Assembly (NCBI RefSeq): GCF_000379805.1
Contig: NZ_KB903543.1
Span: 121,721-175,578 of the forward strand
Direction of reading: 5' to 3'
Length of the DNA stretch: 53,858 bases
Source: Lewinella cohaerens DSM 23179
Lineage (GTDB): Bacteria; Bacteroidota; Bacteroidia; Chitinophagales; Saprospiraceae
Shown here: positions 37,476-40,477 of the stretch, piece by piece
How positions within the stretch are numbered: position 1 is the stretch's first letter
Layout: each line of letters begins with the position of its first letter
The notes under the pieces: model-generated
Database searches by the model: none
Told to the model about the DNA's origin: nothing
Seen by the model: only the letters and a program-made list of their open reading frames with translations
Translations under genes and position numbers: made by a program

Positions 37476-37637
37476 GGTCTTTCCCACCTCCATCACTGCG
37501 TGACACCTCCGCCCGAGCGGAGGACAGGGGTTCCGTTGGGGCTATCTGTGTCTCCTGCTCAGCGGAGGTGGCCGTAGGTCGGGGGTGAGAGCTTGTAGCT
37601 ACTAGGCGAGATGTTGCGTTTTGGTGAAGCCATTTCT
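37476..37637. repeat. GC-rich hairpin repeat R1, left flank of the DUF559 gene
   Basis: About 160 bp, much more GC-rich than its surroundings. It folds as consecutive small hairpins: TCAC-TGC-GTGA (about 37494-37504), CCTCCGC-CCGA-GCGGAGG (37506-37523) and CTCC-TGC-TCA-GC-GGAG (37552-37567). It ends with ACTAGGCGAGATGTTGCGTT. A direct copy (R2) lies on the other side of the DUF559 gene and the stems show compensating changes between copies. Confidence 0.85.
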
Positions 37638-37651
37638 CATTACACTTAGGA

Positions 37652-38092
37652 TCATTCTTTTTTCTTCCTACGCCGCCTTGGTTTAGGCGGCGGAACAGTC
37701 GCATGTTCCTCTATCCAGGTAGCGATTTGAAACTTTACTCCTTCCATATCATTGAGAACCCTTGAGCTGGAAAAACGAAGTGTGGTGAATCCAAGATCAG
37801 CTAGAAATAAATCTCGTCTTTTATCATAAGCTTTTTGCTTCTTGTTTTGATGAGTGATGCCATCTACTTCTATGACCAAACCAATCGGAAGACAAGCAAA
37901 ATCTGCAATATAGAATCCAATGGGGCGTTCGCGTCGGAACTGATAACCAAGCATGTTTCGATTGCGTAGCGCGTATTTCCAAAGTGCAGCCGCTGATTTT
38001 GTAAAATGCTTTCGGTTGTGATTGGCATAATCCTTGAGATGCCTGTTGTAATTATAGTGACTCCAAGAGCGGGGTGCTTCTTCGTGTTTCAT
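37652..38092 (-). CDS. DUF559 (Vsr/restriction-endonuclease-like fold) nuclease domain protein
   Basis: 146 residues from the ATG at 38092; a start at 38158 would add an atypical hydrophobic stretch. Family motifs: SAAALWKYALRNRNMLGYQFRRERPIG, then YIADFACLPIGLVIEVDG (acidic residues D64, E75 and D77 with the family's metal-site pattern) and GFTTLRFSSSRVLND. It ends in a very basic tail (PPKPRRRRKKKE) likely to bind DNA. DUF559 proteins are related to the Vsr mismatch endonuclease but their role is unknown. The gene is bounded on both sides by direct GC-rich hairpin repeats and points against its plus-strand neighbours, which suggests a mobile or repeat-associated unit. Confidence 0.85.
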   Translation of the reverse strand: MKHEEAPRSWSHYNYNRHLKDYANHNRKHFTKSAAALWKYALRNRNMLGYQFRRERPIGFYIADFACLPIGLVIEVDGITHQNKKQKAYDKRRDLFLADLGFTTLRFSSSRVLNDMEGVKFQIATWIEEHATVPPPKPRRRRKKKE

Positions 38093-38169
38093 GAGCGCGT
38101 ATTTTGTGAGAGCTAAAGTCAAAGGTATCAAGTTAGGAGCTATTAAGGGAAGATACAAGTTTTTGGTGA

Positions 38170-38329
38170 GGTCTTTCCCACCTCCGTCCTGTGGACACCT
38201 CCGCCCGAGCGGAGGACAGGGGTGCCGCTAGGGCTATCTGTGTCCCCTGCTTTGCGGGGGTGGCCGGCAGGTCGGGGGTGAGAGGTAAGCTACTAGGCGA
38301 GATGTTGCGCTTTGGCGAGGCCATTTCCC
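38170..38329. repeat. GC-rich hairpin repeat R2, right flank of the DUF559 gene
   Basis: Direct copy of R1. The first hairpin is GTCC-TGT-GGAC (R1: TCAC-TGC-GTGA), the second CCTCCGC-CCGA-GCGGAGG at 38198-38215, the third CCCC-TGC-TTT-GC-GGGG at 38244-38259 (R1: CTCC...GGAG). Both copies share TAGCTACTAGGCGAGATG-like ends (AGCTACTAGGCGAGATGTTG). Confidence 0.85.
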
Positions 38330-38383
38330 ACCTCCATCACTGCGTGACACCTCCGCCCGGGCGGAGGACAGGGGTGCCGCTAG
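38322..38383. repeat. Truncated GC-rich hairpin repeat R3
   Basis: Starts directly at the end of R2 and carries only the first two hairpins: TCAC-TGC-GTGA as in R1 and CCTCCGC-CCGG-GCGGAGG (38350-38367), ending GGGGTGCCGCTAGG as R2 does. It is fused to a different downstream tract. Confidence 0.8.
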
Positions 38384-38488
38384 GAGATGGCTGAATTGGT
38401 GCGTAAGGCGAGGCCTGAAGCTCAGCGGACGGAGGAGCAGGCCAAGGGATAGTAGGAAGCGATAGCGACCGGATAGCCTGGTGCCGAT

Positions 38489-40270: not shown

Positions 40271-40284
40271 GGGGGACGTTTTTT

Positions 40285-40305
40285 TGAACCACCAAGGGCA
40301 CTTAA
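40285..40305. repeat. ACCACCAAGGGCACTTAAG motif after the GH16 gene
   Basis: A half copy of the hairpin sequence found at 40423, lying 15 bp after the GH16 stop and followed by a T-run. It may be the remnant of the same terminator-type repeat. Confidence 0.5.
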
Positions 40306-40422
40306 GTTTTTTTTAAAAAATCGACCTCGGCAAAGCCAAACTATACGACTATGTTGTGAAACTAATCTAGACACCTTTTTATCACATAGACACAATAACA
40401 GTTTTTAATTACTCCCTTTTTT

Positions 40423-40468
40423 ACCACCAAAGGCACTTAAGGTTTTTTCCTTTGGTGCCTTTGGTGGT
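40423..40468. terminator. Bidirectional terminator hairpin between GH16 and DUF2911 genes
   Basis: Perfect 14-bp arms ACCACCAAAGGCAC (40423-40436) and GTGCCTTTGGTGGT (40455-40468) enclose an 18-nt loop and are flanked by CTTTTTT on the left and TTTTAAAG on the right. It lies between convergent genes, as expected of a shared terminator, and belongs to the dispersed ACCAC-AAAGGCAC motif family. Confidence 0.85.
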
Positions 40469-40477
40469 TTTAAAGAA

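Follow-up and report, generated by a model that had tools for sequence, protein, structure and literature searches.

A DUF559 nuclease gene between hairpin repeats in Lewinella cohaerens: a possible mobile-repeat system built on a Vsr-like nuclease

When a small nuclease gene lies between copies of a structured repeat, do the gene and the repeats belong to one mobile unit, and might the nuclease be what moves it? The question is posed by a locus in Lewinella cohaerens DSM 23179, in a 53,858-nucleotide stretch of contig NZ_KB903543.1 that we refer to as the window. An earlier note, made from the DNA letters alone, described two direct repeat copies (R1 and R2) on either side of a DUF559 gene with a truncated third (R3), and our repeat searches agree with this: R1 and R2 have the same orientation and are 87% identical over 164 query positions, and R3 is matched by R1 over 56 nt at 96%. 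The stems also read exactly as first described, with a first stem of TCAC/GTGA in R1 and R3 and of GTCC/GGAC in R2, and with the CTCC/GGAG stem of R1 replaced by CCCC/GGGG in R2. Table 1 lists the features of the locus.

Table 1. Features of the DUF559 locus, in window coordinates.
Feature	Position	Strand	Basis or remark
R1, REPIN-like repeat with spacer	37476..37640	+	two inverted hairpin half-units at about 37480-37591
Left spacer copy TTTTGGTGAAGCC, recurring to the right of the DUF559 gene	37619..37634	+	repeat family D5
DUF559 (PF04480) endonuclease gene, 146 aa from ATG, intact	37652..38092	-	Pfam; D64, E75-x-D77, H81
Right spacer copy TTTTGGTGAGGTC, 81% identical to the left copy	38161..38176	+	repeat family D5
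R2, direct copy of R1, 87% identical	38168..38330	+	repeat search, folding
R3, third copy, truncated	38324..38384	+	repeat search

Folding of R1 (z -3.7) and R2 (z -5.8) was in both cases better than that of all 200 dinucleotide shuffles, and the fold of R3 was unremarkable (z -1.8, with 14 of 200 shuffles equally good). When each copy was compared with its own reverse complement, 76 of 115 columns agreed for R1 and 78 of 112 for R2, and R1 also matched the reverse complement of R2. R1 and R2 are pairs of inverted half-units and are therefore REPIN-like. Solo repeats, which the earlier note suggested looking for, do occur: a BLAST search of the 7.3-Mb genome with R1 found 19 places, of which 16 lie outside R1-R3, match over 24-60 nt each and seem, from their surroundings as judged by eye, to be mainly intergenic. 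Three intergenic loci (L012, L019 and L026) are mosaics with other palindromes beside an R half-unit, for example GTCCCTCTGGAGGGACCGATCCACAGGATCGAGGGAGGG in L026, and elsewhere in the window, at 40282-40475, a palindromic pair ACCACCAAAGGCACTTAAGG lies 3' of a GH16 gene and is accompanied by a second direct copy. A reading of the hairpins as terminators is unlikely by eye, the tails being G-rich and a T-run absent. Rfam returned no family at the gathering score on the window, a stretch that holds no in-frame unit of the kind described below.

The earlier note held that stem changes that keep pairing mean that the structure is selected. Such changes are present. Among 17 aligned units of the genome 92.8% of cells were paired and the covariation score was 0.124, neither of which was reached in any of 500 shuffles; two-sided changes were found in five cells (2 of 500 shuffles), though in only two of the 12 pairs (120 of 500 shuffles), and all of these statistics must be read against a shuffle control that leaves the relatedness of the units in. 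The alignment thus lends modest support to compensatory change within this genome, but the claim of selection was too strong, because copying of one inverted arm onto the other also preserves pairing and because the covariation is modest.

The window protein matched PF04480 with an E-value of 1.4e-27 (96.1 bits against a cut-off of 20.6); its only other Pfam match, to PF18741, fell below cut-off, and the scan found no Y1/HUH tyrosine transposase domain in it. Residues D64, E75-x-D77 and H81 were invariant across 14 aligned members. The profile matched 3hrl at 2.8e-32 and, at 1.5e-6, 3r3p, which is the homing endonuclease I-Bth0305I; these were also the top two Foldseek hits (6.8e-8 and 6.2e-4) of an AlphaFold model with a pLDDT of 88; an alignment-free fold of the same protein was poor (pLDDT 49.5). 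The protein is accordingly predicted to be a Vsr/I-Bth0305I-like PD-(D/E)XK nuclease that has kept its acidic residues. A search of the genome contigs with this single protein found no relatives. PADLOC gave a weak DpdF match (3.5e-5) and no defence assignment.

Reading the flanks of DUF559 loci in 150 genomes of the family, we saw the same hairpin architecture across genera, in differing sequence. We defined a G-tailed hairpin as a C-rich and then a G-rich arm separated by a loop and followed, after a short linker, by a G-run (GGGG), with a stem of at least 5 and lying within 500 bp of the domain. The family set comprised 69 distinct loci from 105 rows (the 36 omitted were matches too weak or too partial, G047:C1 and the second copy within L080; L033 and L055 duplicate L094 and L095), less ten with under 300 bp of flank. 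A hairpin was present at 46 of the remaining 59 loci and on both sides at 27, against 1 and 0 of 231 control ORFs taken from twenty 20-kb stretches of 16 of the family genomes or their contigs. Since the rule was written after these 59 loci had been viewed, the family test is partly circular, and we therefore reapplied the rule unchanged to further loci whose flanks had not been read beforehand. The held-out set, nearly all Bacteroidota, was the best 80 of 572 loci minus seven from Saprospiraceae, Saprospirales or Lewinella and eight with short flanks; here 51 of 65 loci had a hairpin and 36 had one on both sides, compared with 6 and 0 of 117 windows placed 2.5 kb away. Among 20 plasmid loci, hand-picked from 43 records of Cyanobacteria, Deinococcota, Alpha- and Gammaproteobacteria and one Bacillota, 18 had a hairpin and 11 had it on both sides; the corresponding controls were 8 and 1 of 40 windows, a background that is raised because many of the plasmid records are GC-rich. 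No qualifying hairpin was found at 13 of 59 family, 14 of 65 held-out and 2 of 20 plasmid loci, the last being L209, from an alphaproteobacterium, and L289, from the Bacillota record. GIY-YIG genes, treated in the same way, had a G-tailed hairpin at 1 of 22 loci (30 taken, eight with too little flank).

Dinucleotide-shuffled flanks are expected to hold 2.7, 1.7 and 2.3 hairpins in the family, held-out and 14 of the plasmid loci, where 123, 138 and 41 were observed, and the background density is 7 per 400 kb. When the hairpin rule was left aside and the two flanks of each gene were simply aligned, they were alike (local alignment score of at least 50) at 35 of 59, 33 of 65 and 7 of 14 loci. Control windows reached that score in 6 of 260 and 3 of 132 cases, the 132 far windows being drawn from all 80 held-out loci, including those dropped from the test. 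The orientation of the nearest hairpin was mixed, and flanking copies were direct rather than inverted at 28 versus 13 family, 26 versus 9 held-out and 2 versus 6 plasmid loci. The loci are phylogenetically non-independent, with several from one genome and several from Pedobacter. An association of such hairpins with DUF559 genes across several phyla is well supported, and the flanking copies that the earlier note had looked to find in other Bacteroidota extend beyond that phylum.

At the genome level, DUF559 matches occur in 68 of the 150 family genomes. Taking matches of at least 60 bits as presence, three or more copies of a hairpin pattern were found in 22 of 50 genomes with DUF559 and 11 of 100 without (p 1.3e-5), and five or more in 18 of 50 and 10 of 100; the pattern covers one subset of hairpins, counts overlapping matches at one site, and misses the repeat of the window itself, with 0 matches in its own genome and in the sister species G062. 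The pattern is thus commoner in genomes with DUF559 than in those lacking it; equal abundance is what the earlier note had named as telling against its proposal. Six draft genomes without any DUF559 match (G024, G060, G107, G108, G114 and G116) nevertheless carry 24-48 pattern copies, and these are real counter-evidence, for which gene loss or assembly gaps are possible. Genus-mates point both ways: G125, with DUF559, has 98 copies and G018, without it, none, whereas G114, without it, has 42 and G003, with it, 11.

These counts bear on the view that the hairpins are ordinary REPs spread by an HUH (Y1) transposase of the RAYT type, among which DUF559 has settled as a passenger. Y1_Tnp matches are found in 110 of the 150 family genomes, four of them in that of L. 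cohaerens, and taken alone they are weakly associated with the pattern (at least three copies in 29 of those 110, against 4 of the 40 genomes that lack Y1_Tnp; p 0.044); moreover, the GGGGWSAS inverted repeats that PMC3733652 places around some tyrosine transposases resemble the GGGGTGAG tails at some DUF559 loci. However, in a joint model with genome size (p 0.03) Y1_Tnp adds nothing (p 0.82) and DUF559 does (p 0.0003), and G060 combines 42 pattern matches with no Y1_Tnp match. Among the 30 best-scoring Y1_Tnp loci, none of the 20 with enough flank had a G-tailed hairpin, and the four in L. cohaerens have no R1 or R2 match within 1.5 kb on each side. We consider this explanation unlikely. One of those four genes, L243 (G000:C46:34124-34468), is flanked on either side by long palindromes of another kind, GTCGGGTTT...AAACCCGAC, and is likely to be an ordinary REPtron. 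Small GIY-YIG genes also occur as tandem pairs (G061:C229, G042:C11, G072:C74 and G136:C726), whose members lie about 390-540 bp apart and score nearly equally.

DUF559 domains also occur in frame within host genes. The second DUF559 domain of the L. cohaerens genome lies in mnmE (L009, G000:C14:9350-9676), where it is bounded by inverted hairpins, and the unit is common to the sister species. Other family genomes carry the domain in ileS, metH and a methylase gene of the Eco57I type, and one further DUF559 frame with a weak N6-methylase match is ended by a contig edge; the held-out set adds leuS in two Ferruginibacter, aroC and another methylase gene. The Met_synt_B12 profile of metH is split in two, DUF559 preceding the better-matching stretch, and Chorismate_synt is similarly split in aroC. 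The homologues compared (MnmE in four genomes, IleRS in four and MetH in three) have no DUF559 at that place, with homology resuming afterwards; at that very position the MnmE of L259 carries another insert, which is short and repetitive. Units reading into hisF were found, again in the held-out set, in six Pedobacter and one other Bacteroidota, and for L141 and L189 alone the upstream residues were identified by eye as HisA. Ten embedded units were scored, of which six have hairpins on both sides (L009, L094, L029, L166, L181 and L190), three on one side (L036, L042 and L037) and one, in aroC (L182), on neither.

The embedded units are not one clade in a tree of 142 rows and few columns, from which L033, L055, L049, L080, L092, L093 and L096 were left out. 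In the part of it considered, one clade (support 100/99) unites the aroC unit with both leuS units, and those of mnmE, ileS and metH belong, with three others, to a clade of seven (99/89). Supported clades thus mix host genes, and related units sit in different ones. No intein family appeared in the Pfam tables of the scanned proteins, nor was an intron family matched in them, the junctions being read by eye. Residence in mnmE, ileS, leuS, metH and aroC would be an unusual route by which selfish DNA persists.

Comparison of sites between species gives a second view. At the orthologous site, the sister species has an R1'-R2'-R3' array, again with a truncated third copy, and no DUF559 gene, which fits either insertion of the gene between the repeats or its loss; that species carries its DUF559 gene about 7 kb from there, as part of a unit array situated at the margin of an inverted block. 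The Deinococcus hpa clusters show the gene at junctions that clearly differ between two species and with other neighbours in a third, and the hpaE/oxidoreductase junction occupied in one species is continuous in another. Inspection by eye revealed no target-site duplication at DUF559 units, the ends of which vary, with long inverted ends in G125 and Deinococcus and direct copies elsewhere. In two Deinococcus units (L205 and L206) the outermost arms differ between the units, yet both ends of each unit match, as though arms had been transferred from one end to the other or acquired from the target. Because in-frame units are missing from homologues, because an orthologous site is free of the gene and because the hpa positions differ, mobility of the DUF559 unit is well supported by these comparisons.

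The gene-free site also lends itself to another explanation, in which the repeats are pre-existing safe sites or targets where DUF559 genes insert or persist, rather than parts of the element. The gene may have entered between repeats already present there (although a deletion would leave the same arrangement), and REPs are reported as targets of IS elements (PMC1525189). Against this, most in-frame units are flanked by hairpins on both sides when the compared homologues have neither hairpin, and the association reappears, with other repeat sequences, across many genera and in several phyla. We judge it improbable that the repeats merely received the gene.

Copies without a gene were found beyond the locus, as the 16 R1 matches outside the window trio and, in G125, as inverted pairs. 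The DUF559 unit of G125 has 77-nt inverted ends, 97% identical and separated by about 500 bp, and gene-less hairpin pairs in that genome resemble these ends; inspection by eye found no other copy with ends about 500 bp apart among the G125 matches listed, where scoring covered 40 of 88 and 40 of 45 candidates. Eighteen near-identical hairpin pairs in G125 (L294-L311) were considered as proof of DUF559-driven spread and rejected as such: each is central in a MITE of about 230 bp with ends CTGTCGATTACCCACAAATCC, 14 of the 18 copies have exact 9-10-bp duplications, and, since the burst rides in the MITE, it is no evidence for DUF559 activity.

Conserved essential genes are the niche of inteins and homing genes. 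A homing endonuclease would cut insert-free alleles and be copied in by recombination, with the hairpins as tolerated ends, and the kinship of I-Bth0305I with the DUF559 catalytic domain, the insertions in conserved essential genes and the recurrent hisF read-through units all agree with such a role. Homing, however, leaves gene-less hairpin copies at unrelated sites unexplained, and related DUF559 units occupy different host genes; we regard this as quite improbable. That the protein is instead a Vsr-like repair or quality-control nuclease, immobile by itself and adjoining structured DNA for regulation or as its substrate, is very unlikely, for although the Caulobacter DUF559 protein VsrA is, according to PMC12907096, required for the SOS response when the ScmA methylase is missing, a repair role explains neither the in-frame units that homologues lack nor the differing positions in related species.

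The reading that we prefer is that the locus in the window is a single unit of a mobile-repeat system, in which a DUF559 nuclease gene and its G-tailed hairpins are organised like a REPtron and the nuclease replaces the HUH transposase; we give it an even chance of being right. The association and the mobility that the earlier note's idea of a nuclease-driven mobile repeat calls for are there, in the in-frame units and the gene-free site among others, and from these we infer that the nuclease may drive the movement. It would recognise the hairpin and its G-rich tail as its own ends and nick or cut there, perhaps on single-stranded DNA during replication or repair, whereupon host repair would copy the unit to another location. 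Hairpin pairs lacking the gene would ride along as non-autonomous passengers, like REPINs for RAYT transposases, and units that read through in frame could lodge even in essential genes. More tentatively, and with somewhat less than even confidence, we suggest that DUF559 proteins are the mobilising enzymes of widespread, undescribed hairpin-ended mini elements without HUH or DDE enzymes, which spread gene-less pairs in trans and are able to insert in frame into essential genes that are not destroyed by it.

If so, a recurring nuclease partner would offer a testable driver for another class of palindromic repeats, a possible function for a Pfam family still labelled 'unknown function', and another way of viewing Caulobacter VsrA and other Vsr-like DUF559 proteins. 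Palindromic repeats with no known driver are on record, CGTC repeats being described as unassociated with transposase genes (PMC3733652). Among the papers listed by searches of the open literature, which leaves most subscription journals outside, none ties DUF559 or Vsr-like genes to REP-like repeats in its title or the start of its abstract.

Of the known systems, REPtrons (REP or REPIN sequences with RAYT/TnpAREP) share with the DUF559 units a small nuclease gene between palindromic repeats and dispersal both singly and as inverted pairs, but their nuclease is an HUH Y1 enzyme and not a PD-(D/E)XK one, and their REPs carry GTAG (PMC3733652) where the tail seen here is G-rich. TIRtrons, with their TIRYT genes and GGGGWSAS inverted repeats (same source), likewise have a G-rich motif flanking a small nuclease gene; their enzyme is a tyrosine transposase, and the sampled Y1_Tnp genes were without the G-tailed hairpin. 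I-Bth0305I, a Vsr-like (EDxHD) homing endonuclease, shares profile, fold and lodging in conserved genes, whereas here dispersed hairpin repeats accompany the gene and intron and intein families were unmatched in the scanned proteins. Finally, Rickettsia palindromic elements and intragenic REPs, as covered in PMC3733652, are also in-frame palindromic inserts found in essential genes among others, to which the inserts described here add a nuclease domain, mostly between two hairpins.
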